Below, one piece after another: positions 897 through 19,231 of a DNA stretch of 34,553 bases; position 1 is the first letter of the stretch, and each line of letters begins with the position of its first letter. The DNA comes from Rhodospirillales bacterium (GTDB taxonomy: Bacteria; Pseudomonadota; Alphaproteobacteria; Acetobacterales; Acetobacteraceae). The stretch spans positions 1 through 34,553 of the forward strand of contig JANXSM010000015.1 of the NCBI GenBank assembly GCA_025352665.1, read 5' to 3'. The notes under the pieces are model-generated. The model was given only the letters and a program-made list of their open reading frames with translations. It made no database searches and was not told the origin of the DNA. Both the position numbers and the translations under genes were made by a program.

Positions 897-898
897 GA

Positions 899-5072: not shown

Positions 5073-5543
5073 TCACGCCTGCGGTGGCCCACCGACTTGC
5101 TTCTCAGGCCCTTCCTGATCCAGCGTGCGCAGCATCGAACGCAGCGCTTGCGGGGCGACCAGACGCTGCACCGGATCCAGATCTGCTACCATTGCGTCGT
5201 TGATCCGCCGGCTGAATTCGTCCACCGCTGCCGCTGCACTGCGTCCGGCCTCGGTCAGCGCCACCAGCACCACGCGGTTGTCTTCCACGGACCGCCGCCG
5301 CGTGATGTGGCCTTGCTTTTCCAAGCGCGAGATCTGATGCGAAAGCGTTGATTGCGGCAGCGCCATGATCTCGACCAGATCGCCCACCGTGCGCTCGCCG
5401 GTATCCACCAACAGCAACAGAATACGCGAGCTGAAGATGTCGAGGCCGTGTTGGCGGAACAGCCGGTTGGCAACCAGTGTCAGTTTGGCCGTGACCCGAT
5501 AGACCAGAAAGGTCAGCCGCGCGTCGAATGTGCCGTCATCCAT
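5073..5543 (-). CDS. MarR-family transcriptional regulator
   Basis: A 156-residue MarR-type repressor. The winged helix spans about residues 40-105: FSSRILLLLV helix, TVGDLVEIMALPQSTLSHQISRLEKQG as the HTH, then the wing with RRRSVEDNRVVLVALTEAG. The long N- and C-terminal helices would form the dimer interface. MarR proteins usually bind a palindrome and release it when an aromatic or other small ligand binds. It is the last gene of the leftward ten-gene catabolic operon, 18 bases after the binding-protein gene, so it likely controls its own operon and the divergent one. A candidate target is the inverted repeat at 13715-13735. The inducer is unknown. Confidence 0.9.
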   Translation of the reverse strand: MDDGTFDARLTFLVYRVTAKLTLVANRLFRQHGLDIFSSRILLLLVDTGERTVGDLVEIMALPQSTLSHQISRLEKQGHITRRRSVEDNRVVLVALTEAGRSAAAAVDEFSRRINDAMVADLDPVQRLVAPQALRSMLRTLDQEGPEKQVGGPPQA

Positions 5544-5561
5544 CGCGCGGCCTTTCGAAGT

Positions 5562-6686
5562 CTATTGCGGGGGTGCGACGAACTTGCCGCCTTTCACTGT
5601 CAGCAAGGCGGCGCCGTAGTGCACCAGACGATCCTTGTCGATGGTGAAGGTGCCATCGCCTAGGATAGTGGGGGTGGGCGGCATGGTTGCAAAGGCGTCG
5701 CGGAATTTTGCGCGGTCGGTGTGCGTGCCGGCGCGCAGGATGGCGTCGCCCACGAGATGCATCATCGTGTAGCCGATGGCTGCGTAATTATCGGCGACGG
5801 CGCCGAACCGCTTCTGATAGTTGGCAACGAAATTGCGGCCGGCGTCGTCGCGCCCGCCGGGCACGAAATCAGCCGTCATGAATGTGCCTTCGGCCGCAGC
5901 GCCCGCAACCGAGAGATACTGGTCGGTCGCCATCGAGGGCGTGCCGATAATCTTCGTGCTGTCCGGTAGTCCGTTCTGGCGCAGTTGGATGGCCAGGTTG
6001 CCGTCCACGGGCCCCTGGGCCGACAGGAATACGCAATCTGGCTGCAGATCGATCACCTTGGTGGACAGAGCGGCGAAATCCGTATCGCTGCCGAGAATGC
6101 CGTCATCGGACAGGATCGTGCCGCCCATCTGCTTTTGCAGATCCCGGAACAGATTCTTCTGAGCGACGGTTGCCTCGTTCTGGCGGTCAAAGATCAGCGC
6201 GCAGCGGCGCAGCTTCAGCTTCTCGAAGGCGTATTTCGCCACGACGGTGATGAAGTCCTGCGGTGCGGTGGTGCCCTTGAAGGCATAAGGGCCGGCCTTC
6301 AGCACCTCGCCCGACAAGGCCGTCATCACGGTCGGCAGCTTGAGGTCGTTGATGAGCGGGGCCACGGCGAGCCCCTCGATGCTGGAGGTCGGGCCAAGAA
6401 ACACCAGGATTCCGGCATCCTCGCCGTAACGCCGGGCGAGGGTGAGGGCCTGGGTTTTGTCGCTGCCGGTGTCTGCCGTCTCCAGCACGATCTTGTCGGC
6501 GCCGAGCCTGCCGCTGGCGTTGATCTCGTCGGCGGCGAGTTTGATGGCGTTCATCACCGGAATGCCCACGAAGGCGACCGGGCCCGTGAGCGCGTGGGCC
6601 ACGGCAATACGGATGGTCTCGGCGCGCGCTGGCGGAGCGAGCAGCAACACGGCGAGAGCCGTCGACAACAAGATTCTGCGGTTCAT
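5562..6686 (-). CDS. ABC transporter substrate-binding protein, LivK/Peripla_BP_6 type (A)
   Basis: A 374-residue periplasmic binding protein of the branched-chain amino acid (HAAT) type. A signal peptide covers residues 1-22 (MNRRILLSTALAVLLLAPP, cleavage after ARA). The mature part starts with IRIAVAHALTGPVAFVG, the usual first lobe, and continues with EINASG and LARRY. In catabolic clusters such proteins often bind aromatic acids or other organic acids rather than leucine. Its ATG overlaps the stop of the LivF-type gene by four bases, so it is translated from the transporter operon. It is clearly paralogous to the binding protein at 16399-17511 in the divergent operon (shared LTG, EINASG, ITLARR/LTLARR, LAVAP and ND-LK-P positions). 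The ligand is unknown. Confidence 0.92.
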   Translation of the reverse strand: MNRRILLSTALAVLLLAPPARAETIRIAVAHALTGPVAFVGIPVMNAIKLAADEINASGRLGADKIVLETADTGSDKTQALTLARRYGEDAGILVFLGPTSSIEGLAVAPLINDLKLPTVMTALSGEVLKAGPYAFKGTTAPQDFITVVAKYAFEKLKLRRCALIFDRQNEATVAQKNLFRDLQKQMGGTILSDDGILGSDTDFAALSTKVIDLQPDCVFLSAQGPVDGNLAIQLRQNGLPDSTKIIGTPSMATDQYLSVAGAAAEGTFMTADFVPGGRDDAGRNFVANYQKRFGAVADNYAAIGYTMMHLVGDAILRAGTHTDRAKFRDAFATMPPTPTILGDGTFTIDKDRLVHYGAALLTVKGGKFVAPPQ

Positions 6687-7423
6687 GTCAAATCCCTTTC
6701 TTTCTGGAGATCTGGCGTCTCCGTTCCAAGATAATGCGCGATGATGCGTCCATCGGCGGCAAGGTCTGCGCTGGCCCCCGTATGCACGATGCGACCTTGT
6801 TCCAGCACATAGGCGCGTGTGGTCGACGCCAGCGCCCGCGTGGCATTCTGTTCCACCAGCAAGATGGTCAGTCCGTCGGCATTGAGCCTGCGGAGAGCAT
6901 CGAACACCTGGGTGCAGATCATCGGGGCCAGGCCCAGGCTGGGTTCGTCGAGCAGCAACATGTCGGGTGCGCCCATCAGCGCGCGGCCGATCGCCAGCAT
7001 TTGCTGCTGTCCGCCGCTGAGCGAGCCCGCCAGCTGGCGGCGGCGTTCGGCGAGGATGGGGAACAATGCGCGCACCGAAGCGAGGTCGTGGCGCTGCTTG
7101 CGCGCACCCAGGGCCAGCTGACCGAGCAGGAGATTCTCGTCGACCGTGAGATCGGCCAGGATCTGGCGCCCTTCCGGCACCTGCAGCAAACCGAGCCGGC
7201 TGATCCGGTGCGGTGCTGTGCGCGACAACGACCGGCCGGCAAAGCTGATGCTGCCCGATCGCGGCCGCACGACGCCGCTGAGCGCGTTGAGCAAGGTGGA
7301 TTTGCCGGCGCCGTTGGGTCCGATCAGCGCCACCAACTCGCCCGCCGCGACCGTGAGGTCGATGCCGCGCAGCGCATCGATGCCGTCATAGGCCACGGCG
7401 AGATTTTTGACCGTGAGCATCAT
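6683..7423 (-). CDS. ABC transporter ATP-binding protein, LivF type
   Basis: A 246-residue ATPase of the LivF subfamily. It has Walker A GPNGAGKST at residues 35-43, the Q-loop region with LLQVPEGRQIL (the PEGR sequence is typical of LivF), the signature LSGGQQQM, Walker B MLLLDEPSLGL and the switch region with LLVEQN. It powers the LivH/LivM permease together with LivG. The start at 7423 is chosen because ATGA overlaps the LivG stop and the protein then begins at the normal beta-strand; longer upstream readings give non-homologous sequence. It overlaps the next gene by four bases. Transported substrate unknown. Confidence 0.93.
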   Translation of the reverse strand: MMLTVKNLAVAYDGIDALRGIDLTVAAGELVALIGPNGAGKSTLLNALSGVVRPRSGSISFAGRSLSRTAPHRISRLGLLQVPEGRQILADLTVDENLLLGQLALGARKQRHDLASVRALFPILAERRRQLAGSLSGGQQQMLAIGRALMGAPDMLLLDEPSLGLAPMICTQVFDALRRLNADGLTILLVEQNATRALASTTRAYVLEQGRIVHTGASADLAADGRIIAHYLGTETPDLQKERDLT

Positions 7424-8184
7424 CCGGTTCCCAGATATGCGGCGATCACCGCAGGGTCTCGCATCACGGTTCCGGGCGGGCCAGAGGCGATGAGGCGGCC
7501 GGTGTCGAGCACGTTGATCTCGGCACACAGCCGCATGACGAAGGGCACGTTGTGTTCGATCAACAGCACCGCCATGCCGTCACGGGCGAGGGATGCGAAG
7601 ATGTCGCCGAGTTCTGCGGCCTCAACGTCGTTCATTCCCGCCACGGGTTCGTCGAGCATCAGCAGGCGAGGCTGGGTCGCCAGCGCCCGCATCATTTCGA
7701 CGCGGCGCTGATGGCCATAGGACAGGCCACCGGCCGGGTATTCCGCGTATCGCTGCATGCCGAAGCGGTTCAGCAGATCGCGGGCGCGGGCGCGGAGGTC
7801 ACGGGTCTCGCGCCAGGAGGCTGGCAGGCCGAGTAAGTGGGAAGCGAGCGAGGCGCGTTCCAGCCGGTGAAAGCCGACCAGCACGTTGTCGAGCACGCTG
7901 GCCTCGGCGAGCAGGCGAATATTCTGGAAGGTGCGGGCGATCCCGCTGCGAGCAACCTCGAAGGCAGGCGCCTGGCTCAGCAGGCGCGATCCGAGGCGGA
8001 TGTCGCCTTCGCTCAACGTGAGCACGCCAGCGATCATGTTCACCAAGGTGGATTTGCCGGCGCCGTTCGGGCCGATGAGACCGGTGATGCGCCCCGGTGG
8101 AATGTCGAAGCTGACATCGGACACGGCGGTGACGCCGCCGAACCGCTTGGTCACGTGGCGGAGGGTGAGAGTTTCAGACGGCAT
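7420..8184 (-). CDS. ABC transporter ATP-binding protein, LivG type
   Basis: A 254-residue ATPase of the LivG subfamily. Walker A is GPNGAGKST at residues 38-46, followed by the LivG-typical GIARTFQNIRL. The signature is LSYGHQRR, where Gln-to-His is a small departure from the usual SYGQQR. Walker B reads LLMLDEPVAGMN, the switch LLIEHN, and the end resembles VIAAYLGTG as in family members. The start at 8184 overlaps the LivM stop by 11 bases; a longer in-frame reading to 8235 translates the LivM end out of frame and is rejected. It forms the heterodimeric motor with the LivF-type protein. Confidence 0.92.
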   Translation of the reverse strand: MPSETLTLRHVTKRFGGVTAVSDVSFDIPPGRITGLIGPNGAGKSTLVNMIAGVLTLSEGDIRLGSRLLSQAPAFEVARSGIARTFQNIRLLAEASVLDNVLVGFHRLERASLASHLLGLPASWRETRDLRARARDLLNRFGMQRYAEYPAGGLSYGHQRRVEMMRALATQPRLLMLDEPVAGMNDVEAAELGDIFASLARDGMAVLLIEHNVPFVMRLCAEINVLDTGRLIASGPPGTVMRDPAVIAAYLGTG

Positions 8185-9022
8185 TGGCGGCGCGGCGTCG
8201 ACGGCGCAGGAGCGCCAGAGAATCGGCCACTCCATGTGGCAGATAATTGATGATGACGATCAGCAGCAGCCCGTGGATCAGCGGCCGGTTCTCGGCGAGC
8301 GGGCGAGCCAGTTCGGGAAGAGCGGTCAGAATGGCCGTGCCGATGATCGGGCCGATCACCGTGCCGCGCCCGCCCAGCACGATCGAGGCCAGCATGGACA
8401 CGAGCAGCGCGAACCCGAATTGCTGCGGCTCGATGCTATAGACGTAAAGGCTCTGCAGCCCGCCGAACAAGCCGCCGATGCCGCCGCTGATGATGAAGGC
8501 GATGGCGTGGCTGCGTTGCACGGAGATGCCCAGCGAGCCTGCCACCGTCTCGTCTTGGCGCACCGTGTCGAAGGCGCGTCCCAGGCCGGAACGGTCGATC
8601 GCCACCATCAGATACAGCACGGCACCCAAGGCCACGCACAACGTGCCGGTGCCGACCAGCTTGGGAATGCCGTTGATGCCCATGGCGCCGCCGGTCAGAT
8701 CCTCGGCATAGAACCCCAACGACACCACGATTTCGACAAAAGCCAGCGTGGCAATGGCCTGATACACGCCGCGCAGCCGCGCCAGCGGGATCGAGAGCAC
8801 GCCCGCCACGATCAGCCCGAGTGCGGTGGCGGCAGCGACGGCCACCGGCGCCGACACGCCGTATCGGGTCACCAAGATGGCGGTGGCATAGCCGCCGATC
8901 CCGGCGTAGGCGGCCGACGCGATGGAAAACACACCGGCGCGCAACACGATGAACTGGCTGAACGCAAAACCGCAGTTCAGCAAGAACACGTCGAACAGCG
9001 ACTGATAAACGCCCAAGCCCAT
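8174..9022 (-). CDS. ABC transporter permease, LivM type
   Basis: A 282-residue inner-membrane permease with about eight hydrophobic segments. It contains the LivM hallmarks: a GVFSIASAAYAGIGGYATAI-like segment near the N-terminus, LRGVYQAIATLAFVEI, and a C-terminal loop SMLASIVLGGRGTVIGPIIG that contacts the ATPase. The start at 9022 shares one base with the LivH stop (TGATG). A much longer open frame to 10084 exists, but its N-terminal 350 codons are an out-of-frame reading of LivH. It pairs with LivH to form the channel. Confidence 0.92.
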   Translation of the reverse strand: MGLGVYQSLFDVFLLNCGFAFSQFIVLRAGVFSIASAAYAGIGGYATAILVTRYGVSAPVAVAAATALGLIVAGVLSIPLARLRGVYQAIATLAFVEIVVSLGFYAEDLTGGAMGINGIPKLVGTGTLCVALGAVLYLMVAIDRSGLGRAFDTVRQDETVAGSLGISVQRSHAIAFIISGGIGGLFGGLQSLYVYSIEPQQFGFALLVSMLASIVLGGRGTVIGPIIGTAILTALPELARPLAENRPLIHGLLLIVIINYLPHGVADSLALLRRRRRAANAV

Positions 9023-9906
9023 CAGCGCCGTCCCACGCCGGTGTTCGCCACGCCGAACAATCCGTTGGGACGCACCATCAGCACCAGAAACAGCAGCGAG
9101 AAGATGATCGTGTCGGTGAGGCCAGATGGCAGATAGGCGGTGGCCAGGGTCTGCAGCACGCCGAGCCCCATACCAGCCACCACGGCGCCGGCGATGCTGC
9201 CGAGCCCGCCCAGGATCACCACCACGAATGCGCGCAGCAGATAAGGCTCTCCCATCATGAAATGCACCGAGTTGAACGACAGACCCACCAGCACGCCGGC
9301 CAGCCCAGCCATGGCGCCGGACAGGAAGAAGGTGCGCAGATAGATGGCGTCTGGGTTCACGCCGAGCAGCACGGCGGCACGCGGGTTGCCCGCGACGGCA
9401 CGAACCTGACGGCCCAGGCTGGTGTGAAAAATCAGCCAGCTCAGCAGCCCCAACAGGAACGCCACGGACCCCGCGATCGCCAGTTGCAGCAGCGACACCC
9501 GCAGGCCCCAGAAGCGGTAGAAGACCACCGGAAACGTGGCGAAGGGAAAGCGCAGCACCTTGGTTTCCGAAATCCGCTGGGCAATGCTCACCAGCACCAG
9601 ATTGGCGCCGATGCTCGAAATGATCGCGCCGAACTCCGCCTGTCCGCTGGCGCGCAGGCGGCGAAATGCCAGGACATCGATCAACACCGACAAGGTTCCA
9701 GCGCCGACCATCGCCAAGATGATGGCGAACCAAAGCGGAATGCCGGCGAGCACCGCGTAAAGCCCGATGAAGGCGCCAGCCATCAGCAGCGCGCCATGCG
9801 CGAGGTTGAGAATGCGGTGCACGCCGAAAACGAGGGTAAAACCCAGTGCGAACAGCGCGTAAACCGCGCCAGCGACCAGTCCATTCATGATCTGCTGGGC
9901 CAGCAT
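9022..9906 (-). CDS. ABC transporter permease, LivH type
   Basis: A 294-residue permease with about eight membrane segments. It begins with IMNGLVAGAVYALFALGFTL, followed by HRILNLAHGALLMAGAF, both classic LivH features. The ATPase-contact loop near the C-terminus reads LLRAFVVVILGGLGSIAGA. The ATG at 9906 shares a base with the stop of the upstream SDR (TGATG), which fixes the start; the in-frame extension to 9969 is not homologous. It works with LivM, LivG and LivF and most likely with both binding proteins of the locus. Confidence 0.92.
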   Translation of the reverse strand: MLAQQIMNGLVAGAVYALFALGFTLVFGVHRILNLAHGALLMAGAFIGLYAVLAGIPLWFAIILAMVGAGTLSVLIDVLAFRRLRASGQAEFGAIISSIGANLVLVSIAQRISETKVLRFPFATFPVVFYRFWGLRVSLLQLAIAGSVAFLLGLLSWLIFHTSLGRQVRAVAGNPRAAVLLGVNPDAIYLRTFFLSGAMAGLAGVLVGLSFNSVHFMMGEPYLLRAFVVVILGGLGSIAGAVVAGMGLGVLQTLATAYLPSGLTDTIIFSLLFLVLMVRPNGLFGVANTGVGRR

Positions 9907-10667
9907 CAGAAATTGGAAACCCCGAGCCCGAGTCCGCCATCGACGTCCAGCACCGCGCCCGTGGTCCATTCCGCGCAGGCGAGATGGGCGACGGCCTCGG
10001 CGATCTCCAAAGCGGTGCCGATGCGGCCGAGCGCATGCAGCGGCCCCAGCGCCTGCATGCGTTCGGCGGCGGCGGCATCGTCATAGAGCCCGGCGCGTTG
10101 GTTGATTTCAGTGGGCACGGCGCCGGGAACGATGCAGTTCACCCGGATCTGCCGTGGCCCGAGTTCGGCGGCCAGCACCCGGGTGAGCGCTTCCAGCGCG
10201 CCTTTGGTGGCGGCATAGGCGGAGGCGCCGGGGAAGGCGCGACGGGTATGGACGGAGCCAAAAAAGATGACGCTGCCTTGCCGTTCGGCCAGATGCGGCA
10301 CGGCCTGGCCCGTCAACAGCATCGCGCCGATGACGTTGGTGTTGAACAGATCCAGCAACGCCGCCTGGTCCAGTGCCTCGATCGGGCCGCGGAGCATGTT
10401 GCCGGCGGCGTTCACGAGAACGTCGATCCCGCCGCCATGGCTCAGTGCGGCATCGATGATGGCCGTGCGGTCTGCCTCCGAAGTGATATCGCCCGCGACC
10501 GCCCGGCAGGCAGAGCCGATTTCGGCTGCGACAGCTTCGATCTTGTCCGCGCGCCGGCCGCAGATGGTGACCATGGCGCCGTGTGCTGCGAAAAACCGCG
10601 CCGTTCCCGCGCCGAGACCGGAGCCTGCACCCGTTACGATGACCGACATGCCAGCGATCGCGCGCAT
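9906..10667 (-). CDS. Short-chain dehydrogenase/reductase (SDR) 1
   Basis: A 253-residue classical SDR oxidoreductase. The cofactor motif TGAGSGLG is at residues 12-19, NAAG at 86-89, and the catalytic set is Asn111, Ser138, Tyr151 and Lys155 (YAATK). The GRR after the second strand (37-39) hints at NADP(H). The C-terminal part includes an IVPGAV loop and ends in DVDGGLGLG. It sits between a second SDR and the permease genes with one-base overlaps on both sides, so it belongs to the catabolic operon. It probably oxidises an alcohol produced by one of the oxygenases, or reduces a ketone; the substrate is not deducible. Confidence 0.93.
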   Translation of the reverse strand: MRAIAGMSVIVTGAGSGLGAGTARFFAAHGAMVTICGRRADKIEAVAAEIGSACRAVAGDITSEADRTAIIDAALSHGGGIDVLVNAAGNMLRGPIEALDQAALLDLFNTNVIGAMLLTGQAVPHLAERQGSVIFFGSVHTRRAFPGASAYAATKGALEALTRVLAAELGPRQIRVNCIVPGAVPTEINQRAGLYDDAAAAERMQALGPLHALGRIGTALEIAEAVAHLACAEWTTGAVLDVDGGLGLGVSNF

Positions 10668-11434
10668 CAGCGTTTTTCCTCGCGTGGCAGCAGCGACAGC
10701 AGATTGGCGACAACGCCGCCATCGACCACCAGTTGGTGCGCGTTGATGTAGCGTGCCGCATCCGAAGCCAGGAAGGCCACCGCATTGGCGACGTCTTCGA
10801 CAAGCCCCAATGCGCGCAGCGGCACGCCGGAGCCGCGCAGCGCGCGGACCTTCGGGTCGGCGAAAATGGGAGCGGACATGCCGCCATCGATGAAGCCTGG
10901 CGCCACAGAGTTCACGCGCACGCCGTGTGGACCCAGCTCGACGGCGAAATGTTCCGTGAGCCTGGCGATCGCAGCCTTCGTGGCCGGATAGGCGCCGGCG
11001 TTCGGCCCAGGCGTGATGGCGTTGATCGAGGTGATGTTGACGATCGCCCCTGACCCTCGCGCCACCATGCGGCGTGCCACGATCTGCGAGACGATGAACA
11101 CACCGACAAGGTTCACATCCACCACGCGGCGGAAATCTTCGACACTTTGCTCCAGCAACGATCCGAAGCGAACGATCCCGGCGTTGTTGACCAGCACATC
11201 CAGACTGGCGCCGAACGCCAACTCGGCCGCAGCCACGGCCTGTTCCACTTGCGTCGCCTCGGTCACATCGGCTTGCAATCCGATGGCGCCGTCGAGCCTG
11301 GCTGCCGTCGCGCGGGCAGTCTCGCCGTTCGCGTCGACCACGGCGACGCGGTAGCCATCCGCCGCCAGTTTCAGGGCGATCGCGGCGCCAAGCCCTGCGC
11401 CGCCGCCGGTGACGAAGGCGGTTCTATGAGCCAT
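10667..11434 (-). CDS. Short-chain dehydrogenase/reductase (SDR) 2
   Basis: A 255-residue classical SDR. It has TGGGAGLG at residues 9-16, Asp34 after the second strand (VVD), which favours NAD(H), NNAG at 83-86, and the catalytic Ser136, Tyr149 and Lys153 (Y-P-A-T-K). A C-terminal VDGG is present. The start at 11434 overlaps the P450 A stop by 11 bases; the longer frame to 11518 reads through the P450 tail out of frame. With SDR 1 it makes a pair that may act on successive alcohols or with different cofactors, consistent with NAD-linked oxidation after P450 hydroxylation. Confidence 0.92.
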   Translation of the reverse strand: MAHRTAFVTGGGAGLGAAIALKLAADGYRVAVVDANGETARATAARLDGAIGLQADVTEATQVEQAVAAAELAFGASLDVLVNNAGIVRFGSLLEQSVEDFRRVVDVNLVGVFIVSQIVARRMVARGSGAIVNITSINAITPGPNAGAYPATKAAIARLTEHFAVELGPHGVRVNSVAPGFIDGGMSAPIFADPKVRALRGSGVPLRALGLVEDVANAVAFLASDAARYINAHQLVVDGGVVANLLSLLPREEKR

Positions 11435-12626
11435 GGGATAGCACCGGATAGGTTCCCCAGTTCGCGCGTTTGGTATGCGGAGCAGATGTCGGCGGATTTG
11501 CCGGATCTGGCCGCGCACCGCGGTCGCGCAATTCGGCCAGCAGCCGCGTCACGATGCCGAACTGATGCGTGGCCGGATCGGCGCCGTCGCCGGGCACCAC
11601 CCCGCCGTCGAGATCGCGGCCAAGGCAGAGATGCGGTCCGGTGCCGAAGGTCAGTCCCCACGGCGGCGTTGGTTTTTTGATGTCGCGATGCGGGTTGAAC
11701 CGGTCCGCATCGGTGCCGAACAGATGCTGATCGCGGTTGGCCGCGTGGAGATCGACCACGATCTCATCCCTATCGTCGGCATCTCCCCCTGGCAGCGACA
11801 CCGGGCAAACCGGCCGGCGCCACGCCACGGGACTGGCCGGATGCAGCCGGAAACTTTCGAACACGCAACGCTGCAGAAAGAATGGATCGTTTTGCAGGCG
11901 TGCTTCGTCCTCAGGATGCTCGGCGAGCCAGCAAACCAGATCGTGAAACGCATGGGCGATCGAGTTGGCCGTGCTGTGCGAGCCCGCCTGGAGATAGAAT
12001 GCCATTTCCCGGACCAACAAATCCGGTGGCAGCAACATTTTGTCTTCGTTGCGTAGCAGCACTGTCAGCACGTCGCTGGGCAGCGCCTGCTCGCCGATCT
12101 CGCCGCGGTTGAAGCGGGCCAGAAGGTTTTGCCGCCGTGCGATGGATGCTTGCAGAAAATCCGTCTCCAGCTCGGCAAGGGCGGCGCGCACCTCGACTTC
12201 GACATCTGCTTTGTTTCGCGTCGAGTGCACCAGCGTGGCGCCTTCGCTGAAACAATGCACCAGAGCCAGCAACTGCTCGGTCTCTGTCGGCGTGCGCGCC
12301 GGCCGATCGATGCCGGCGAAATCCGCCGTGAGGTTCATCGTCACCCGATAGGCAAAATCCAGCAGGTCGAAGTGACCGGCGGCCAGGAATGGCGCCAGGG
12401 TTTCAGCCATGGTGCGGGGGAACACCGTGTTCTCGTAGCGATGGAAGAAGTCACGGCGGAACACCCGAAACTCCAGCACGCGGCGCAGCCGATGCGCGTC
12501 GCCATGCAAGGTCAGCAGCACCTGGTCCATGATGACGGCGCCGGCGTCGTACAGCGACTGGCGCAGATCCTTGTGGCGCAACACCTCCGACGCATCGGCG
12601 TAGGTGCTGAAGTGCAGAACGCTCAT
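11424..12626 (-). CDS. Cytochrome P450 (A), atypical I-helix and post-cysteine insert
   Basis: A 400-residue soluble bacterial-type P450 with no membrane anchor. The HGDAHRLRR C-helix motif is near residues 41-49, the K-helix ESFR at 257-260, and the heme loop FGTGPHLCLG has the thiolate ligand Cys334. The I-helix reads AGSHST (214-219): the usual acid before the Thr is His217 and the Thr position is Ser. His in that place is known in CYP51 enzymes. After GRDL, where other P450s go straight into the L-helix, there is a polar insert rich in Gly, Asp and Pro (about residues 340-355). The ATG overlaps the amidohydrolase stop (ATGA). It is paralogous to the P450 at 15184. Substrate unknown, and no redox partner is encoded nearby. 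Confidence 0.92.
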   Translation of the reverse strand: MSVLHFSTYADASEVLRHKDLRQSLYDAGAVIMDQVLLTLHGDAHRLRRVLEFRVFRRDFFHRYENTVFPRTMAETLAPFLAAGHFDLLDFAYRVTMNLTADFAGIDRPARTPTETEQLLALVHCFSEGATLVHSTRNKADVEVEVRAALAELETDFLQASIARRQNLLARFNRGEIGEQALPSDVLTVLLRNEDKMLLPPDLLVREMAFYLQAGSHSTANSIAHAFHDLVCWLAEHPEDEARLQNDPFFLQRCVFESFRLHPASPVAWRRPVCPVSLPGGDADDRDEIVVDLHAANRDQHLFGTDADRFNPHRDIKKPTPPWGLTFGTGPHLCLGRDLDGGVVPGDGADPATHQFGIVTRLLAELRDRGARPDPANPPTSAPHTKRANWGTYPVLSHGS

Positions 12627-13636
12627 GCAGATTGGCGCAGCAGACGACGCGCATTGTCGGCCAAAGCGGGCTCGGGCGGCGCATGGTGGGCTGCGTCTGG
12701 CGCGTCCCACCCCGCGAAATTGGTGCCATAGACCAAGCGGTCGCCGCCGACGCGGTGTTTCAGCAACGCAAGCGAGGCGTCATCGTTCACATGCGTGTCG
12801 AACCACAATCTTGCCAGGAGTGCTTCGAACGCGCCGTCGGGACGCAGCGCGTCGCGCGACCAGGGGCGTTTGCGAGCGGCCTGGGCCAAACGTCCGGCGA
12901 GGAAGGCGATGGCGCCGCCACCGTGGCTGACGCAGATGTCGATCGTGGGATGGCGTTCCAGCACGCCGCCAAAAATGAGAGTGGCTGCCGCGATGGTTTC
13001 CTGTGCCGCAAAGCCTGCCACCAGGTCGAGATCGAACCGTTTCAGGTTGGGGTCACCGGCCAGGCCGTCGATCCCTGCTGGGGCCGGATGAATGAACAGC
13101 GGCACGTTCAGTTTCACACAGGTCTCATACAGCCGGTCGAAGGCGGGCGCGTGCAGCGGCTCGACATTGTCGGTGCCGATATACGCACCCCACAAACCAA
13201 GCTCGGAAACCGCGCGATGCAGCTCCTCGCAGGACGCGCCGATGTCCTGGGTTGGCAGAGCTGCGAGACCGGCCAGCCGCGTGGGGTGGCGCGCCACGGT
13301 CTTGGCCAAAGTGTCGTTGTGGATACGGCAGAACGCCACGGCTTCAGCGACGTCGATATGGCTGAAATAGGTCAACGGATTGGGGCTCAGCACCTGGAAG
13401 TCGATGCCGGCCTCATCCATCCGTTTGATCCGTAGAACCGGGTCCATGAACGGGCTGCCGGCGTATCGCACGCCGATCAGCCGATAATCCCCGACTCGGA
13501 ACAAAGACGTGCCGTCCTCGGTTGCCGCGATTTCGGGGCCGTATCGACCGGCGGCACCCATGGTTTCGGCGAACACGGCATGTGCGTGCACGTCAAGCAC
13601 CGCAGCATGCGCGATGCCGCCCGTCGTCGCGCTCAT
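12623..13636 (-). CDS. Amidohydrolase family 2 protein (ACMSD-like) 1
   Basis: A 337-residue TIM-barrel protein of the amidohydrolase_2 family, which includes aminocarboxymuconate-semialdehyde decarboxylase and related decarboxylases and hydrolases. Visible active-site features are the HxH metal motif (His17, His19 in DVHAHA), His183 (FIHPAP) and His238 (SHGGG). The position of the last metal-binding Asp in the usual G-S/T-D-Y/F motif is Asn306 here (YGTNFAGWD), which may alter or remove one metal contact. It is the first gene of the leftward operon; GGGGGAAG upstream of the ATG is a good ribosome binding site. It likely cleaves a C-C or C-N bond in an oxidised intermediate; decarboxylation is one option. 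Confidence 0.88.
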   Translation of the reverse strand: MSATTGGIAHAAVLDVHAHAVFAETMGAAGRYGPEIAATEDGTSLFRVGDYRLIGVRYAGSPFMDPVLRIKRMDEAGIDFQVLSPNPLTYFSHIDVAEAVAFCRIHNDTLAKTVARHPTRLAGLAALPTQDIGASCEELHRAVSELGLWGAYIGTDNVEPLHAPAFDRLYETCVKLNVPLFIHPAPAGIDGLAGDPNLKRFDLDLVAGFAAQETIAAATLIFGGVLERHPTIDICVSHGGGAIAFLAGRLAQAARKRPWSRDALRPDGAFEALLARLWFDTHVNDDASLALLKHRVGGDRLVYGTNFAGWDAPDAAHHAPPEPALADNARRLLRQSA

Positions 13637-13781
13637 GCGCTTCCCCCAAATCTATTGTTTTCGATGCTATAAGCGGCGTTCACAAAAGAAAAGCGCAATT
13701 TTTCTGCTGCATTGCACAACAAAATCATCGTTGTGATCTATCGATCTCGATGTTACTTGTCGTCGAAACGGAGAAGCCAAC
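13637..13781. promoter_or_regulatory. Divergent promoter region of the two catabolic operons
   Basis: The 145 bases between the two amidohydrolase starts must hold both promoters. This part is clearly more AT-rich than the surrounding genes. It contains CACAAC-N9-GTTGTG (13715-13735) and the partly overlapping GCAAT-N12-ATTGC (13694-13698 with 13711-13715). TATAGC-like sequence on the minus strand near 13670 could be a -10 element. MarR repressors bind such palindromes, so this is the likely control point, but the operator assignment is inference. Confidence 0.6.
13715..13735. promoter_or_regulatory. Candidate MarR operator, CACAAC-N9-GTTGTG
   Basis: A perfect 6-base inverted repeat with a 9-base spacer lies in the middle of the divergent promoter region, 47 bases before the rightward start codon. 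Half-site spacing of about 15 bases centre to centre is somewhat wide for MarR but possible. The overlapping GCAAT/ATTGC pair is an alternative. Confidence 0.4.
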
Positions 13782-15149
13782 GTGAAGCATCCGCTGCTCA
13801 TCGAGCATGGATCCATCATCGACGGAACCGGCGCGGTGCCCGTTTCAGCCGATATGCTGGTGGTCGGGCAGACCATCGCAGCCATCGGGCCGGAAGCCCG
13901 CGCCCAGGCCGATCATTTGCCGCGCGTCGAAACATTCGACGCCACGGGCTGCACGATCATGCCAGGGCTGATCGACGCGCATTGCCATTTGTCGTTCGAC
14001 GATGCGTCCTCCAATGCCGAGTTGTTCACCCATCGGCGCAATGCGCTGTCGGCTCTGGTCGCCGCCTACAACGCGCGGAAACTGTTGCGGGCAGGCGTTA
14101 CCTCTCTCCTCGACCCAGACAGCCTGTTCGAGAACATGATCGATCTGCGCGACGCCATCGAGGCCGGCATGGTGGAAGGGCCGCGCATGTCCTGCGGCGC
14201 CTATGCGCTGATGACAGCGGTCGGCGGCACCGCAGGGCGGCTGATCGCCGATACCGGTGTCACCGGCTATGCCCGCGTGGTGAACTCACGCGACGAGTTG
14301 GTGAGTGAGGTGCGCCGCCAGATCAAATACGGCGCAGACTGGATCAAAGTGCATGTCACCGGCGTCATTCCCCGCCAGGCGCACAAGGGCGAGCTTTCGG
14401 TGTGGTCGTTCGATGAGCTCAAGCTGCTGTGCGACGTGGCCCATGATCTGGGCACGCCCGTCATGGGCCATTGCCGCGGTGCGACAGCGGTCCGCGACGC
14501 AGCCCGGGCCGGGTTCGACCTGTTGTTCCACGCCACCGGCATGGACGACGAGGCGCTTGACGAGGTTGTGAAGCGACAAATCCCGATCTGCCCGGCGCTG
14601 ACCTTTCAGGCCAATATGGTCGATTTCGGTCACCGCCTCGGCACCGACGCCGCGTTGCGGAACATGTTCGAGCGCGAGATCACCGACAGCGCCGAGACGC
14701 TCATCCGCGCCCGCAAGGCAGGCGTCCCGCTGCTGTGCGGCAGCGAAAGCGGGTTCTCGATGGTACCTTACGGCCATTGGCATTATCGCGAGATGGAGGT
14801 GTTCGTCCGCTATCTCGGCATGACGCCGTTGGAAGCGCTTGCCTGCGGCACCAGTGCCGGTGCTTTCGCCATGAAGATGGAAGGCCAGATCGGTGTGTTG
14901 AAACCGGGCTACCAGGCCGATCTCATCTGCCTCGAGGGCGATCCGTCGCAAGACGTCACGATCCTTGGCGAGACCGAACGCATGCGCCTGGTGATGATCG
15001 CCGGCAAACAGATGGACATCTCCCCGCTGCCGCCGCGCAAGCGTCTGCAAGGCTGGACCATCGCTTCCATGGGCACGCAGCTGACGCGCGAACTGGCCTT
15101 CTCCAACCAATACCCCAACGAACCTGTCGAGATCCAAGAACTGCACTGA
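13782..15149 (+). CDS. Metal-dependent amidohydrolase (imidazolonepropionase/prolidase-like) 2
   Basis: A 455-residue amidohydrolase_1-type protein: a beta-sandwich formed by the N- and C-termini around a TIM barrel. Features seen are PGLIDAHCHL with His67 and His69, Lys189 in DWIKVHVTG (the position of the bridging, usually carboxylated Lys), His230 (MGHCRG) and His250 (FHATG). The usual GTD-S/A-G motif with the catalytic Asp reads GSESG, giving Glu322. The C-terminus has GMTPLEAL and GVLKPGYQADLI as normal. The start is GTG at 13782, supported by GGAGAAG six bases before it. First gene of the rightward operon. It probably hydrolyses an amide, lactam or lactone ring; the true substrate is unknown. 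Confidence 0.88.
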   Translation: MKHPLLIEHGSIIDGTGAVPVSADMLVVGQTIAAIGPEARAQADHLPRVETFDATGCTIMPGLIDAHCHLSFDDASSNAELFTHRRNALSALVAAYNARKLLRAGVTSLLDPDSLFENMIDLRDAIEAGMVEGPRMSCGAYALMTAVGGTAGRLIADTGVTGYARVVNSRDELVSEVRRQIKYGADWIKVHVTGVIPRQAHKGELSVWSFDELKLLCDVAHDLGTPVMGHCRGATAVRDAARAGFDLLFHATGMDDEALDEVVKRQIPICPALTFQANMVDFGHRLGTDAALRNMFEREITDSAETLIRARKAGVPLLCGSESGFSMVPYGHWHYREMEVFVRYLGMTPLEALACGTSAGAFAMKMEGQIGVLKPGYQADLICLEGDPSQDVTILGETERMRLVMIAGKQMDISPLPPRKRLQGWTIASMGTQLTRELAFSNQYPNEPVEIQELH

Positions 15150-15183: not shown

Positions 15184-16386
15184 ATGGCTGTCCATAGCGT
15201 CAAAACCTATGCCGAGGCGGAGGAACTGCTCCGCCGCGACGATCTGCGCCAGGGCCTCTATGACGAGGGCGCGGTGCTGATGGAGAAGGTGCTGGTCAAC
15301 TTGCACGGCGCCGAGCACCGCGCCCGGCGCATGGTGGAGGCCAAGGTGTTCCGGCGGGACGTGTTCTTCGCCTACGAGCAGAAGATCTTCCCGCACACCA
15401 TCGCCGAGACCCTGGCGCCGTTCCTGGTCGACGGCTGCTGCGACCTTGTCGATTTCGGCAACCGGGTGATGCTGAATCTCACCGCGGATTTCTCCGGCAT
15501 CGACCGACCGGAGCGCAGCGCCGCCGAAACCGCCACCCTGCTCGGCCTGCTGCGCAGCTTCGGCAAAGCGGCGACGCTCGGCCAGGCCACTGGAGACCGC
15601 GAGGCGATCCGGGCCGAGGTGCGTGACAGCCTGAAATTGTTCGACGACGCGTTCTTCACCCCCTCGATGCAACGCCGCCAGGCGTTGATCGAGGCGGGAG
15701 ACGAGCTGCCGCGTGACGTGCTGACCGTGCTGCTGCAGTTCCGCTCGGAGTTGCCCGACAGCACGCACGACACGTTGATGAAGGAGCTCGCCTTCTATCT
15801 GCTCGCCGGCGCCTTCACCTCGGTGCATTCCATGACCGATGCGATGCACGAGCTGTTCGTGTGGCAGACGGCAAATCCGGATCAGGCCGCGCGCGTGCTG
15901 GCGGACCCCGTCTTCGCACAAAGCTGCGTGATGGAAAGCACGCGGCTGCACCCGTCCAGCGCCGTCGCCTGCCGTAGACCGACCGGCACGGCCGAGATGC
16001 CCGCGGTGGGTCTGGTGGGGCCGGAGGACGTGCTGATGATCGATCTTCTCGCCGCCAATCAGGACGTCTCGCGGTTCGGCGCGGATGCCGCAGCCTTTCG
16101 CCCGGGCCGCGAGACCGTGGGCAATGTCGGCCCGTACGGATTGTCGTTCGGGATGGGTGCGCATGCCTGCATCGGCCGCAACCTGGCCGCTGGCGCGCTG
16201 CCGCGCGGCACCGTTGACCCCGCAGCCCATCATTACGGCACCATCACGCTGCTGGTGCTGGCACTGCTTCGCCATGGTGCGCGGCCCGATCCGGCCGACC
16301 CCGCGAGGCAGGACGCCTCGATCACCCGCCTGAAATGGGCGCGCTATCCGGTTCTGTTCAATCCGCCGCAGCAAGACGGCCCGTAA
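15184..16386 (+). CDS. Cytochrome P450 (B), paralogue of P450 A
   Basis: A 400-residue soluble P450. The K-helix ESTR is at 251-254 and the heme loop FGMGAHACIG has Cys329. The I-helix motif is AGAFTS (208-213): Thr212 is present, but the acid is Phe211. As in P450 A, GRNL is followed by a polar insert (AAGALPRGTVDPAAHHYG) before the hydrophobic L-helix, and the C-terminus ends in RLKWARYPVLF-type sequence. N-terminal similarity to P450 A is strong (DDLRQGLYDEGAVLM against KDLRQSLYDAGAVIM), so the two arose by duplication. It lies 34 bases after amidohydrolase 2 and 12 before the binding-protein gene. Electron donors are not encoded nearby. Confidence 0.92.
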   Translation: MAVHSVKTYAEAEELLRRDDLRQGLYDEGAVLMEKVLVNLHGAEHRARRMVEAKVFRRDVFFAYEQKIFPHTIAETLAPFLVDGCCDLVDFGNRVMLNLTADFSGIDRPERSAAETATLLGLLRSFGKAATLGQATGDREAIRAEVRDSLKLFDDAFFTPSMQRRQALIEAGDELPRDVLTVLLQFRSELPDSTHDTLMKELAFYLLAGAFTSVHSMTDAMHELFVWQTANPDQAARVLADPVFAQSCVMESTRLHPSSAVACRRPTGTAEMPAVGLVGPEDVLMIDLLAANQDVSRFGADAAAFRPGRETVGNVGPYGLSFGMGAHACIGRNLAAGALPRGTVDPAAHHYGTITLLVLALLRHGARPDPADPARQDASITRLKWARYPVLFNPPQQDGP

Positions 16387-16398
16387 AGGAATTTTCGC

Positions 16399-17511
16399 AT
16401 GCGCATGTCACTCGCAGCCCTGGCGCTGCTGCTGGCGCCACTCACGGCGCACGCCGAGGAGTTCATCCTCGGCGCGCCGCTCTCGCTGACCGGCACCTAC
16501 GGCTATATCGGGCCGGACGTGCAGAAGGGCATGATGCAGGCGATCGAGGAGATCAATGCCAGCGGTGGCGCCGGTGCCGGGCGCACCTTGAAGCTGATCG
16601 TGGAAGACGACGGCAGCGACCGCAACCAGTCCATCACCCTCGCCCGGCGCATGGCGCAGCGTGACAACGCGCTGGCGATCGTCGGGCCGAATTCCACCGT
16701 GACCGCCCTGGCCGTGGCACCTGTGGTCAACGACCTCAAGATCCCCATGCTGGGTATCGCGGTGTCATCGGCAGTGACGCAGGCGGGACCTTGGTCGTTT
16801 CACGTAATGGCGCCGCCGAACCTGCTGATGACGGGGCTTGCGAAATACACCATGGACAAACTCAAGCCCAAGACCGTGCTGACCGTCGCCGGGCGCGACA
16901 ACGAAGGGGCCGTGGCGCAGATCAAGGCGGCGCGCGCCTATTTCGAAGGAAAGACGACTTTGCTGCCGGAGGAATCGGCGCTGATGTCCGAAACCAATTT
17001 CTCCGCCCTCGCCACCAAGATAGCCAGCTTCAAGCCAGATGTGGTGATGATCGCCATGGCCGACGCCAACGCCGCCAGCCTGATCGTGCAATGCCGTGAG
17101 GCCGGGGTGGACGAGAGCACGAAATTCGTCGGCAACAACGCCCAGGCCTCACCGAGCTTCATCAGCATTGGCGGAGCCGCCGTCGAAGGCGCGTTCATGG
17201 CAGCCGACGCGTTTCCGCAGGCACGGCAAGACGCGACGGCCGTGAAATTCATGGCCGACTACCAGGCCCGCAACAAGGCGGCGCCGTCTCAGTGGTCGGC
17301 CATGGGCTACACCATGATCCGCATCATGGCCCGTGCCATCGCCGCCACAGCCACACCGACGCGCGACGGCGTACGCGAGGCACTCGGCAAGGTTCAGGGC
17401 GTGGAAACCCTGCTCGGCCGCGACAGCTTCAGCTTCGATGCGGCCCGCGAGCCAAGCTACGAACCGCTGGTTCTGACTGTGAAGAACGGCGCCTTCCAAC
17501 TGGCCCCGTAG
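16399..17511 (+). CDS. ABC transporter substrate-binding protein, LivK/Peripla_BP_6 type (B)
   Basis: A 370-residue periplasmic binding protein with a signal peptide (about residues 1-19, cleavage after AHA) and a mature start EEFILGAPLSLTGTYGYIG. It has the HAAT-family first-lobe features (EINASGG, ITLARRM, IVGPNSTV). AAAGGAA upstream is the ribosome binding site; ATG at 16405 is an alternative start. There are no permease or ATPase genes in this rightward operon, so it most likely delivers to the LivHMGF-type transporter encoded divergently. Two receptors would let one channel accept two ligands, such as a parent compound and a breakdown product. Confidence 0.92.
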   Translation: MRMSLAALALLLAPLTAHAEEFILGAPLSLTGTYGYIGPDVQKGMMQAIEEINASGGAGAGRTLKLIVEDDGSDRNQSITLARRMAQRDNALAIVGPNSTVTALAVAPVVNDLKIPMLGIAVSSAVTQAGPWSFHVMAPPNLLMTGLAKYTMDKLKPKTVLTVAGRDNEGAVAQIKAARAYFEGKTTLLPEESALMSETNFSALATKIASFKPDVVMIAMADANAASLIVQCREAGVDESTKFVGNNAQASPSFISIGGAAVEGAFMAADAFPQARQDATAVKFMADYQARNKAAPSQWSAMGYTMIRIMARAIAATATPTRDGVREALGKVQGVETLLGRDSFSFDAAREPSYEPLVLTVKNGAFQLAP

Positions 17512-17519
17512 GAGCTCCA

Positions 17520-18086
17520 ATGACCGAGATGTCAGACTTGCTGGCCCGCGTCGAGAAACTCGAGGCGCGCGCCGAGATCGCCGAACTCGTCAGCGCCTAC
17601 GCGATCGCCTGCGACGACCACGACATGCCACGTCTCATGAGCCTGTTCACCGATGATGCGGTTCTGGACTCGCCCAGCGGCCTTATGCACGCCATCGGCA
17701 AGCCTGCGATCGATGCGCTGTTCATCGCAACCTTCAAGATCCGCGGCCCGGCGTTTCACTGGACCCATGACCATTTTGTTCGCTTCGATCGCGGTCCCGA
17801 CGAAGCCAGCGGCCTTGTGTTGGCCCATGCCGAGACGTCGCCGAACAACGAGGTCAGCCTTGCTGCCATGCGCTATGCGGATGTTTATCGCAGGGTAGGC
17901 GGGCGCTGGCTGTTTGCACGGCGGCAAATCAACTTTCTCTATTACGTGCCAGCCAAGGATTACCTGCAAAGTCTTACCACGCCCGCGCGCATCACCGTCT
18001 CTGGCCGGTCGTTGTCGGCGGATTATCCTGAACGGACCGACGCCTGGAGGGCGTTCGACCTTGACCACGACGTAAAGGAACGGTGA
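17520..18086 (+). CDS. NTF2/SnoaL-like protein
   Basis: A 188-residue protein with the SnoaL/NTF2-like start LEARAEIAELVSAYAIACDDHD, then LFTDDAVLDSPSG and a C-terminal sheet with YADVYRRVGGRWLFARRQINFLY. Proteins of this fold act as isomerases, dehydratases or hydrolases, or serve as beta subunits of ring-hydroxylating dioxygenases. Its stop overlaps the Rieske alpha-subunit start (TGATG), so a beta-subunit-like role or action on the Rieske product is attractive, but the sequence looks more SnoaL_4-like than a true Ring_hydroxyl_B subunit. The start at 17520 is chosen for the GGAG seven bases before it, nine bases after the binding-protein gene; a longer in-frame reading to 17292 overlaps that gene and is rejected. 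Confidence 0.82.
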   Translation: MTEMSDLLARVEKLEARAEIAELVSAYAIACDDHDMPRLMSLFTDDAVLDSPSGLMHAIGKPAIDALFIATFKIRGPAFHWTHDHFVRFDRGPDEASGLVLAHAETSPNNEVSLAAMRYADVYRRVGGRWLFARRQINFLYYVPAKDYLQSLTTPARITVSGRSLSADYPERTDAWRAFDLDHDVKER

Positions 18087-19231
18087 TGACCGACGCCATC
18101 GATTTCGCAGCGCTGACCCGCCGTGCGGTTGCCAACGTCGCCGCCCGCACCACTGACCAGGCGGAGGGCACCATGGCGCTTCCGGTCGAGGCCTATTTCG
18201 AACCGGAGCGGTATCGGCGCGAGGTGGAGCACATCTTCCACCGCCTGCCGCTGGCCGTGGCACTGAGCCTGGAGATCGCAGCGCCCGGCAGCTATGTCGC
18301 GCGCACGATCATGGGCGTGCCTGTGCTGCTGGCCCGCGCCGAGGACGGAGTGGTGCGTGCCTTCATCAATGTATGCCGCCACCGTGGGGCTCCGGTGTGC
18401 GAACCCGGCGCCGGATCGCGCAAGCGGTTCCTATGCCCGTATCACGCCTGGTCCTATGACCTGACCGGCGCGTTGGACAACGTGTATGGCGAAACCACCT
18501 TCGGCGAAATCGACCGCAGTGCGTTGTCGCTGACCCCACTTGCCTGCGCCGAGCGAGCCGGGCTGATCTGGATATCGCTGAAGCCCGGCGCCACGTTCGA
18601 CATCGACCAGTGGCTCGGCGATTTCGTGGGGCAGCTTGAGGCGCTCGATCTCGACAATTGGCATATCTATGAGCGTCGTGAAATCGACGGCCCCGGCTGG
18701 AAGGTGGCGTGGGACGGATATCTGGAGGGCTACCATCAATCCGCCCTGCACCCGAACACGGTGGGCAAGAACACCATCGGGAACATGATGCTGGTGGACG
18801 CCTACGGCCCGCACCAGCGCATTGTGTTCGGCCGCAAGACGCTGGCCGGGCTGGTGGGAAAGCCGGAATCTGAATGGGACATGACCGGCCACATCCGGCT
18901 GATCCACTCGGCGTTTCCCAATCTTTCGATCTCGGGCGTGCTGGGCGACCACGCCCTGGTCTCGCAGCTGTACCCAGGCCCGACGCCTGACCGCTCGCTC
19001 ACGGTGCAAACCATGTTGTGCCGAGAGAAACCAACAACGGAGGCGCAGGCGGCGGCGAACCGGCTGTTCAGCGCCATGGTGCTGGAGGCGGTGGCAGAGG
19101 AGGATTACGCGGTCGGGTTCAAGATCCAGGACGGATTGGCGTCTGGCGGGAACCGGGAGTTCGTGTTCGGGCGCAACGAGCCGACGCTGCAGCATTACCA
19201 TCAATGGGTGGCGCGGTTCTCAGCCGGATAA
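18086..19231 (+). CDS. Rieske non-heme iron oxygenase, alpha subunit
   Basis: A 381-residue oxygenase large subunit. The Rieske [2Fe-2S] ligands are Cys97, His99, Cys117 and His120 (C-x-H-x17-C-x2-H). The mononuclear iron site is His217 and His222 (GYHQSALHP), with a likely third ligand at Asp340 in AEEDYAVGF. The bridging position three residues before the first His is Glu214 rather than Asp; Glu is found there in carnitine/choline-type Rieske monooxygenases such as CntA. The enzyme would hydroxylate or demethylate its substrate using electrons from a reductase that is not encoded here. It is the last gene of the rightward operon. The start is ATG at 18086; GTG at 18083 is possible. Confidence 0.92.
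   Translation: MTDAIDFAALTRRAVANVAARTTDQAEGTMALPVEAYFEPERYRREVEHIFHRLPLAVALSLEIAAPGSYVARTIMGVPVLLARAEDGVVRAFINVCRHRGAPVCEPGAGSRKRFLCPYHAWSYDLTGALDNVYGETTFGEIDRSALSLTPLACAERAGLIWISLKPGATFDIDQWLGDFVGQLEALDLDNWHIYERREIDGPGWKVAWDGYLEGYHQSALHPNTVGKNTIGNMMLVDAYGPHQRIVFGRKTLAGLVGKPESEWDMTGHIRLIHSAFPNLSISGVLGDHALVSQLYPGPTPDRSLTVQTMLCREKPTTEAQAAANRLFSAMVLEAVAEEDYAVGFKIQDGLASGGNREFVFGRNEPTLQHYHQWVARFSAG

Follow-up and report, generated by a model that had tools for sequence, protein, structure and literature searches.

The window, a stretch of 34,553 nucleotides from a Rhodospirillales bacterium of the Acetobacteraceae (contig JANXSM010000015.1 of assembly GCA_025352665.1), contains a locus of 15 genes in two divergent, tightly packed operons. 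We read this locus as a catabolic unit that is under the control of MarR and breaks down a small organic compound taken up from outside, and assign to this reading a probability of about 0.72. The unit is built on a core of two cytochrome P450 proteins (P450a and P450b), a metallo-hydrolase (AH1) and two short-chain dehydrogenases (SDR1 and SDR2), usually joined by a second amidohydrolase (AH2). Each enzyme of the locus is a member of a known superfamily; it is the presence of the core throughout a bacterial family with very small genomes, labeled f49 here, that lifts the locus above a routine catabolic island. Coordinates refer to the window unless a contig or an L-numbered locus is given; G000 designates the genome of the window and THN1 designates Novosphingobium sp. 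THN1.

Pfam matches exceed the curated cut-off for all 15 genes (livM as the 3' end of a longer open reading frame, 8174-10084), and in every frame the start and stop codons are intact and internal stops are absent. Outward from the promoter, the minus-strand operon consists of AH2, P450a, SDR2, SDR1, livH, livM, livG, livF, binding protein 1 (BP1) and marR, and the plus-strand operon of AH1, P450b, binding protein 2 (BP2), a SnoaL_4 protein and a Rieske oxygenase. Of the 13 junctions inside the operons, nine are overlaps of 1-11 bp and four are gaps of 8-34 bp. The Pfam scans and the start/stop check thus bear out the complete set in two back-to-back operons that a sequence-only reading of the same DNA had described, including the gene order, the overlaps and the shared promoter region, a divergent gap of 145 bp (13637-13781). 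Its assignment of the two amidohydrolases to different families also held, the Pfam matches being to Amidohydro_2 for AH2 and to Amidohydro_1 for AH1.

Conservation of the complete locus in another genus

A search of 299 genomes of the window's family with P450b (E<=1e-40) yielded strong matches in three, G000, G017 and G112. In G017, which belongs to another genus of the family, counterparts of all 15 genes lie in one stretch, with identities of 70-80% for the enzymes and 58-69% for the permease and ATPase genes. Joint conservation of the two operons, the point on which the sequence-only reading had been staked, is therefore borne out. The marR gene of G017 is 70% identical and is relocated between SDR1 and livH; genes for an additional SDR, a TIM-barrel protein and a further binding protein lie at the transporter end there. 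G112, an assembly of 440 contigs that is 73% complete, has AH2-AH1-P450-P450-SDR2 in a row. SDR1 (9906-10667, minus strand, Pfam adh_short) is 79% identical to its counterpart in G017, 58% in THN1 and 57-61% in four f49 genomes; the values for SDR2 (10667-11434, minus strand, adh_short) are 78, 55 and 47-49%.

G017 also has a second set of genes at 5373-9288 of L078 (G017:C107:1-19000), comprising ThuA, an SDR2-like gene (58%), a TIM-barrel gene (AP_endonuc_2) and an AH2-like gene (62%), near a LysR-like frame and with no P450 matches nearby. This set perhaps represents a related pathway.

A core module in several families

The core genes AH1, P450b, P450a, SDR2 and SDR1 are complete and in this order in THN1 and in all four f49 loci read; in G523 they are distributed over two contigs, and in G112 and G424 they are partial at contig ends. 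A tblastn search of plasmids located the module of THN1, an isolate from Lake Taihu, on the 1.16-Mb plasmid pTHN. There the order is AH1, P450b, P450a, SDR2, a ThuA-like gene and SDR1; AH2 and a third SDR follow in the facing orientation, and after these comes a match to marR (43%). Upstream of the module are genes of a CoxS/L/M/G-type molybdenum (Mo) hydroxylase and a flavin oxidoreductase gene. In the THN1 sequence as deposited the P450a match is broken, and the match to ThuA continues across one stop.

A class-wide search with the P450 profile found 8 of 385 genomes, with the P450 pair in G000, G424, G523 and four small genomes and a distant single P450 in G353. The four small genomes are members of f49 and measure 1.3-1.4 Mb; the GC content of their 4-kb P450 loci is 31-35%. 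All four loci read AH1-P450b-P450a-SDR2-ThuA-SDR1, followed by a third SDR that faces them and by a Mo-hydroxylase frame (Pfam was run on one locus, in which ThuA was confirmed; in a second, ThuA was identified by similarity). P450s were found in 15 of the 18 f49 genomes searched: 14 have two matches (in G1042 on separate contigs, one partial) and one has a single match near a contig edge. All six f49 genomes that are at least 90% complete contain both P450s, and the three genomes without P450s are 61-79% complete. AH2 homologues occur on another contig in the four f49 genomes tested. A genome of 1.3-1.4 Mb affords few accessory genes, yet 15 of 18 keep the P450s, which argues that the substrate is common enough to pay for two of them.

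This distribution bears on the proposal that the locus removes a bioactive compound, such as an antibiotic or a plant or algal signal, without the compound being eaten. Detoxification or signal quenching would agree with the patchy occurrence in the window's family and with the plasmid location in THN1, and MarR regulators often respond to toxic aromatic compounds. A steady nutrient is, however, the simpler reason for the retention of the P450s in f49, and a high-affinity importer would be an odd choice for disposing of a harmful compound. We regard detoxification as improbable.

In G523, AH1-P450b-P450a occupies one contig and SDR2-ThuA-SDR1 together with AH2 a second. A Mo hydroxylase lies by the core here as well as in THN1 and f49, and a squalene-hopene cyclase gene is near the G523 core. 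A CoxL match in G000 (59%, one of eight CoxL-type matches) was considered as the corresponding Mo hydroxylase and rejected: it adjoins, by eye, succinate dehydrogenase and ATP synthase genes, and because of these housekeeping-like neighbors the Mo hydroxylase is not counted as a part of the pathway in G000.

Around the core of THN1, the four f49 loci and G523, no hits were obtained for the LivHMGF, binding-protein, Rieske and SnoaL genes. The co-occurrence of both P450s with the amidohydrolase and Rieske genes, which the sequence-only reading had suggested as a check, thus holds in one part: both P450s recur with AH1 in THN1, four f49 loci, G112 and G523, and a Rieske gene was found near the core in G000 and G017 only.

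Synteny also bears on whether the locus could consist of two unrelated operons, AH2-P450a-SDR-Liv and AH1-P450b-BP-Rieske, placed back to back by chance. In G000 and G017 the P450s indeed belong to separate, divergent transcription units. In four f49 loci, THN1, G112, G424 and G523, they are adjacent, in the same direction and behind AH1, so that the split in G000 and G017 looks like a rearrangement of one unit; moreover, both halves share the promoter region and a pair of candidate operators. A chance arrangement is already contradicted by these findings and is very improbable.

Two f49 genomes read closely contain a second cluster (L074, G565:C3:160200-180100; L075, G346:C8:72200-92100) in which, among the frames scanned, an AH2 gene is accompanied by a paralogue resembling AH1 and by Rieske oxygenases, part of which adjoin SnoaL-type genes. 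The cluster of G565 adds genes for a TonB receptor, a P450 with a weak match, and FAD_binding_2 and ABM proteins; this tiny genome is rich in oxygenases. A rhodopsin gene was found in three of six f49 genomes tested and in G000 (a bacteriorhodopsin-family gene at G000:C49:22251-22916, E 3.4e-39) and was not found in G017.

The twin P450 proteins

P450a (11424-12626, minus strand) and P450b (15184-16386, plus strand), both with Pfam p450 matches, are 47% identical across 400 aligned positions. They retain the EXXR motif (ESFR and ESTR) and the heme-thiolate cysteine loop FGxGxHxCxG. P450a has the I-helix sequence AGSHST and the heme signature CLGRDLDGG, P450b the I-helix sequence AGAFTS and the heme loop CIGRNLAAG, and neither I helix contains the acid. 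The acid-alcohol pair of the I helix is common in P450s, though not universal. Aspartate or glutamate was found at the acid position in none of the 23 aligned P450 rows; in the 20 rows of the two clades the position is taken by His, Phe or Gln. The signatures of the P450a clade are AG(S/A)HSTxNS and C(L/F)GR(D/E)LDGG, those of the P450b clade AGA(F/Q/H)T(S/T)xH and C(I/L)G(R/L)NLA(A/I)G.

With the 23 rows, all of 200 bootstrap trees (100%) place the ten P450a rows and the ten P450b rows on opposite sides of a single branch. The tree covers the four f49 genomes fetched, omits a third, partial P450 of G112 (C74) and represents THN1 P450a by the first piece of the broken match. The identity and the tree confirm that the two P450s are paralogous, as had been proposed. 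From the split it follows that the duplication probably predates the separation of the carrier lineages, with both copies retained.

The nearest solved P450 structures are remote (best 82 bits by profile, cypX). The best named relatives include cypX, cyclodipeptide-associated P450s, TxtE and NascB/AspB, all far under the NCBIfam cut-offs; against the cyclodipeptide-associated family the scores were 56.6 and 49.3 bits with a cut-off of 500. A structure prediction of P450b from an alignment of the two window P450s had a mean pLDDT of 39.0. Scanning contigs with the P450 sequence gave four loci, an Acidobacteria metagenome-assembled genome fragment (45%, partial) and three matches at 26-27%. The distant homologue of G353 (L059:9351-14920, G353:C94) adjoins, by eye, hydantoinase A/B-like genes and an ATP-binding cassette (ABC) importer.

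A P450 with 44% identity is present in Streptantibioticus cattleyicolor (pSCAT 695774-720955, L035), where it lies amid non-ribosomal peptide synthetase (NRPS), MbtH, B12-radical-SAM and TauD frames, probably a biosynthetic cluster. In the family scan of L035, three of seven frames were long plus-strand frames without a family; minus-strand frames were scanned separately. In the tree this P450 falls on the b side, on a long branch.

These relatives raise the question of whether the P450s, SDRs and amidohydrolases modify a compound made by the cell itself, such as a natural product, lipid or pigment, with the transporter a mere neighbor. The best named P450 relatives include tailoring enzymes, at the low scores given, the Streptantibioticus homologue lies amid NRPS genes, and a squalene-hopene cyclase gene is found near the G523 core. 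Arguing against biosynthesis, no scaffold-building gene is among the identified genes of the window, G017, THN1 and the f49 loci, in which the frames were scanned in part. G000 and G017 have a complete high-affinity uptake system, THN1 has a TonB receptor gene with an operator-like site, and two hydrolases combined with a MarR regulator suit induction by a substrate. Biosynthesis is unlikely in our view, less so than detoxification.

Amidohydrolases with altered motifs at a probable metal-site position

When AH1 (13782-15149, plus strand, Pfam Amidohydro_1) is used as a profile, its alignment with the nearest solved relatives, the Xaa-Pro dipeptidase 2qs8 and the arginine carboxypeptidase 3mtw (Cc2672), extends for about 400 residues. 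HxH, Lys and two His are retained in nine of nine homologues, a count that leaves aside the AH1 of G424, which is partial because the contig ends there. In the same nine sequences the motif CG(S/T)ESGF is aligned with GTDAG of 2qs8 and 3mtw, so that Glu replaces Asp. AH1 scored 216.7 bits against the NCBIfam family XaaProDiPepCaul (cut-off 500) and lacks its GTD motif.

AH2 (12623-13636, minus strand, Pfam Amidohydro_2), an ACMSD-like metallo-hydrolase or decarboxylase, aligns as a profile over about 250 residues with ACMSD, the nearest solved family, and retains HxH and two further His. Its GTN aligns with GTD of ACMSD (4igm), Asn replacing Asp in 12 of 12 homologues, paralogues included. In ACMSD and the amidohydrolase superfamily the Asp in question is a metal ligand or metal-site residue. 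The alignments indicate that Glu of AH1 and Asn of AH2 probably sit at this metal-site position, and ordinary dipeptidase or ACMSD activity is therefore not expected of the two enzymes. The conserved Glu and Asn replacements and the missing I-helix acid of the P450s amount to concrete biochemical predictions.

Divergent promoter and candidate operator

Alignment of the divergent promoters of G000 and G017 revealed two conserved blocks, at almost equal spacing in the two genomes (86 and 87 bp), of the form ATYGNYYTCGATRYTA. In the window the left copy, on the AH2 side, is at 13654-13669 and the right copy, on the AH1 side, at 13740-13755, both on the plus strand; the core of the right copy is ATCGATCTCGAT. 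The counterparts in G017 are L030:12963-12978 (left) and L030:13050 (right). When up to one mismatch is allowed, the pattern is restricted to the divergent promoter within the window and the 20-kb G017 stretch, and exact matches among 99 loci are confined to the overlapping G000 and G017 loci. The blocks, which precede both operons, form a candidate MarR site, and we infer that MarR (5073-5543, minus strand, Pfam MarR/MarR_2) reads it. The site would provide a route to the inducer.

THN1 has two perfect copies of ATCGATATCGAT, one immediately upstream of AH1 and the other immediately upstream of the divergent flavin oxidoreductase gene; the counterpart of the right copy, at L034:14929, has two mismatches to the pattern and a perfect core. 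Further near copies on pTHN, at L034:29100-29206, lie no more than about 110 bp upstream of a gene for a TonB receptor (29206-31236); to judge from these sites, THN1 may take up the same compound through this receptor. The 31 kb of THN1 contain seven matches with up to two mismatches where 0.68 are expected, and four of these lie away from any clear promoter.

A palindrome CACAAC-N9-GTTGTG (13715-13735) was dropped in favor of the ATCGA-NN-TCGAT element, as it is not conserved in G017. A scan of 13600-13820 for the sigma-70 consensus detected no promoter-like site.

Transporter and Rieske genes

The transporter is of the LivHMGF type. Two BPD_transp_2 permeases, two ABC ATPases and a Peripla_BP_6 protein are encoded in one operon, all on the minus strand: LivH (9022-9906) and LivM (8174-9022), both BPD_transp_2, LivG (7420-8184, ABC_tran and BCA_ABC_TP_C), LivF (6683-7423, ABC_tran; start from the start/stop check) and BP1 (5562-6686, Peripla_BP_6). 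BP2 (16399-17511, plus strand, Peripla_BP_6) belongs to the other operon. Identities to G017 are 67% for LivH, 58% for LivM, 69% for LivG, 65% for LivF and 71% for BP2. BP1 is the least conserved part, with 38-44% to the two binding proteins at the transporter end of G017. Both binding proteins remain far under the curated cut-offs of the branched-chain amino acid and urea families; against PRK15404 (branched-chain amino acid) they scored 81.8 and 74.6 bits, with a cut-off of 477.

The alpha subunit of a Rieske non-heme iron oxygenase (18083-19231, plus strand, Pfam Rieske and Ring_hydroxyl_A) is 75% identical to the G017 counterpart. By inspection the cluster motif CRH...CPYH and the iron-site motif EGYHQSALH are conserved in both, so that the CxH/CxxH pattern and the 2-His-1-carboxylate site are present. 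Its nearest solved structures are 3n0q, carnitine monooxygenase and the demethylase 4qup; the score against glycine betaine monooxygenase GbcA (NCBIfam NF058607), 116.5 bits, is below the cut-off of 670. A Rieske search of plasmids gave 948 records with a match, the best at about 42% identity; two stretches inspected proved to be Sphingomonadales clusters without the P450 module, and the match on pTHN (40%) is far from that module. The adjoining SnoaL_4/NTF2-like protein (17520-18086, plus strand, Pfam SnoaL_4) is 70% identical to that of G017; its predicted structure had a mean pLDDT of 37.4.

To the right, the locus is flanked by genes for a HAD hydrolase and a YhdP-like protein and then by the housekeeping genes for GlnE, peroxiredoxin, PheT and PheS. 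At the left end of the window, positions 1-4000 have a GC content of 54-55%, compared with 61-71% elsewhere, and include a fasciclin gene (899-1315) and an HTH_21 fragment (2156-2650), a domain typical of IS3-type transposases. This left border is possibly a foreign or decayed segment.

Proposed pathway and its weight

We infer the following order of reactions, direction of breakdown and electron source. In this lineage the compound would enter through the LivHMGF transporter with the help of the two binding proteins and would then lift MarR from the operator in front of both operons. P450a and P450b would hydroxylate two different positions or act in sequence; distinct or sequential roles are suggested by the presence of both P450s in nearly every genome that has one. 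The SDRs, judging from their family, would oxidize the new alcohols to ketones, and AH1 and AH2 would cleave an amide, lactone or carbon-carbon bond of the activated skeleton. The Rieske oxygenase and its SnoaL partner may add a lineage-specific step, perhaps the removal of a methyl group or the opening of a remaining ring. The 15 genes of the locus include neither a ferredoxin nor a ferredoxin reductase, a point that the sequence-only reading did not raise, and the three oxygenases must therefore draw electrons from elsewhere, presumably from ferredoxin systems encoded outside it.

The sequence-only reading had united all 15 genes in one pathway. That the genes act together is supported by the complete set in G017 and by the recurrence of the core in fixed order; that all 15 are equal parts of it is not supported, as the transporter, binding-protein, Rieske and SnoaL genes are unmatched around the core of THN1, four f49 loci and G523. 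It looks as if the transporter and Rieske genes had been added to a core that is older. Because the core recurs in several families, including one with small genomes, the compound it degrades is probably widespread.

Several observations weigh against a catabolic unit of this kind. Strong P450b matches are rare in the window's own family (3 of 299), and a phylum-wide search with AH1 (E<=1e-110) retrieved one of 398 genomes, that of the window. A ThuA match was not found in G000, though ThuA sits in the core elsewhere. As read, the core contains no ring-cleavage dioxygenase, CoA ligase or beta-oxidation gene, so that the end products feed elsewhere or the unit is a partial pathway. A related P450 amid NRPS genes means that the P450 family is not purely catabolic, and in the P450 tree the support of the a/b branch is moderate (85/93) and deeper forks are open. 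With regard to the operator, the consensus was built from the four G000 and G017 sites and only those of THN1 are therefore independent. Its 12-base core is not specific: ten hits at 9/10 or better occur in the window, nine of them away from the promoter, compared with 0.55 in mononucleotide shuffles, and for five of the six loci listed (four f49 and G523) the 160 bp preceding AH1 yielded no core at 8/10 or better.

The earlier suggestion of a ring-bearing, nitrogen-bearing or lactone compound as the substrate is backed by weak hints only. A diketopiperazine or other cyclic amide was rejected as too weakly indicated, by the low similarity of the P450s to cyclodipeptide-associated enzymes and the hydantoinase-like neighbors (by eye) in G353. 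A hopanoid was set aside, the one neighbor in G523 being likely due to chance. Microcystin, which THN1 degrades, was also dropped; in a term search of the main text of the THN1 genome paper, as far as that text was available, P450 and amidohydrolase are not mentioned (PMC6167471).

A more far-reaching interpretation is put forward tentatively and is somewhat less probable than its negation. The twin-P450/AH1/SDR/ThuA module, with AH2 and the Mo hydroxylase, might constitute a core pathway, as yet undescribed, that handles a compound common in the environment. It would be nearly universal in a family of small-genome bacteria, some of which bear rhodopsin, and would have been passed sideways to large-genome bacteria such as the lake Novosphingobium. 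Its P450s would both work in the absence of the usual I-helix acid, and the metal sites of its two amidohydrolases would be redesigned. Identification of the substrate would name a compound that is widely consumed and yet, in the literature searched, not recognized as food by this route.

Comparison with known systems

Among the matches listed in the open-access literature, no characterized cluster with this gene set was found, in agreement with the sequence-only reading, which had known of none; subscription journals were outside the scope, so that a published match is possible. Cytochrome P450, amidohydrolase, Rieske and a catabolic gene cluster are mentioned together in a paper on the degradation of polycyclic aromatic hydrocarbons (PMC10989954) and in that on the lumichrome pathway (PMC12746152).

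The importer has every component of the HAAT-type (LivHMGF) ABC importers, that is two permeases, two ATPases and binding proteins, and differs from their norm in having two binding proteins of the same Pfam family in separate operons. The Rieske oxygenase has the carnitine, glycine betaine and stachydrine monooxygenases among its nearest solved relatives and carries a Glu before the iron-site His pair (EGYHxxxxH), as carnitine monooxygenase presumably does too. Unlike those systems it adjoins a SnoaL_4 gene. AH1 resembles the Xaa-Pro dipeptidase/Cc2672/ochratoxinase branch of Amidohydro_1 in the length of the alignment and in HxH, Lys and two His, with CG(S/T)E in place of the GTD of that branch. 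AH2 is similarly like the ACMSD/Amidohydro_2 decarboxylases in its alignment over about 250 residues and in its His set and lacks the Asp of the ACMSD GTD motif.

Nearest in logic is the lumichrome (riboflavin) catabolic cluster lum of Nocardioides simplex, compared here by its published description, in the parts available (PMC12746152). Like lum with its Mo enzyme, the core in THN1, f49 and G523 has a Mo hydroxylase nearby. A thiamin-dependent decarboxylase, an extradiol dioxygenase, and a ferredoxin and a reductase of its own also belong to lum; by Pfam, none of these is among the 15 genes of the locus. Its P450, LumU, is a single self-sufficient protein of 81 kDa with its own reductase domains, whereas those of the window are two stand-alone proteins of 400 amino acids. 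What the available description of lum has in common with the locus is the principle of combining P450 oxidation with hydrolytic steps and a Rieske dioxygenase in one catabolic cluster, in lum together with a Mo enzyme of the xanthine-oxidase type (PMC12746152).

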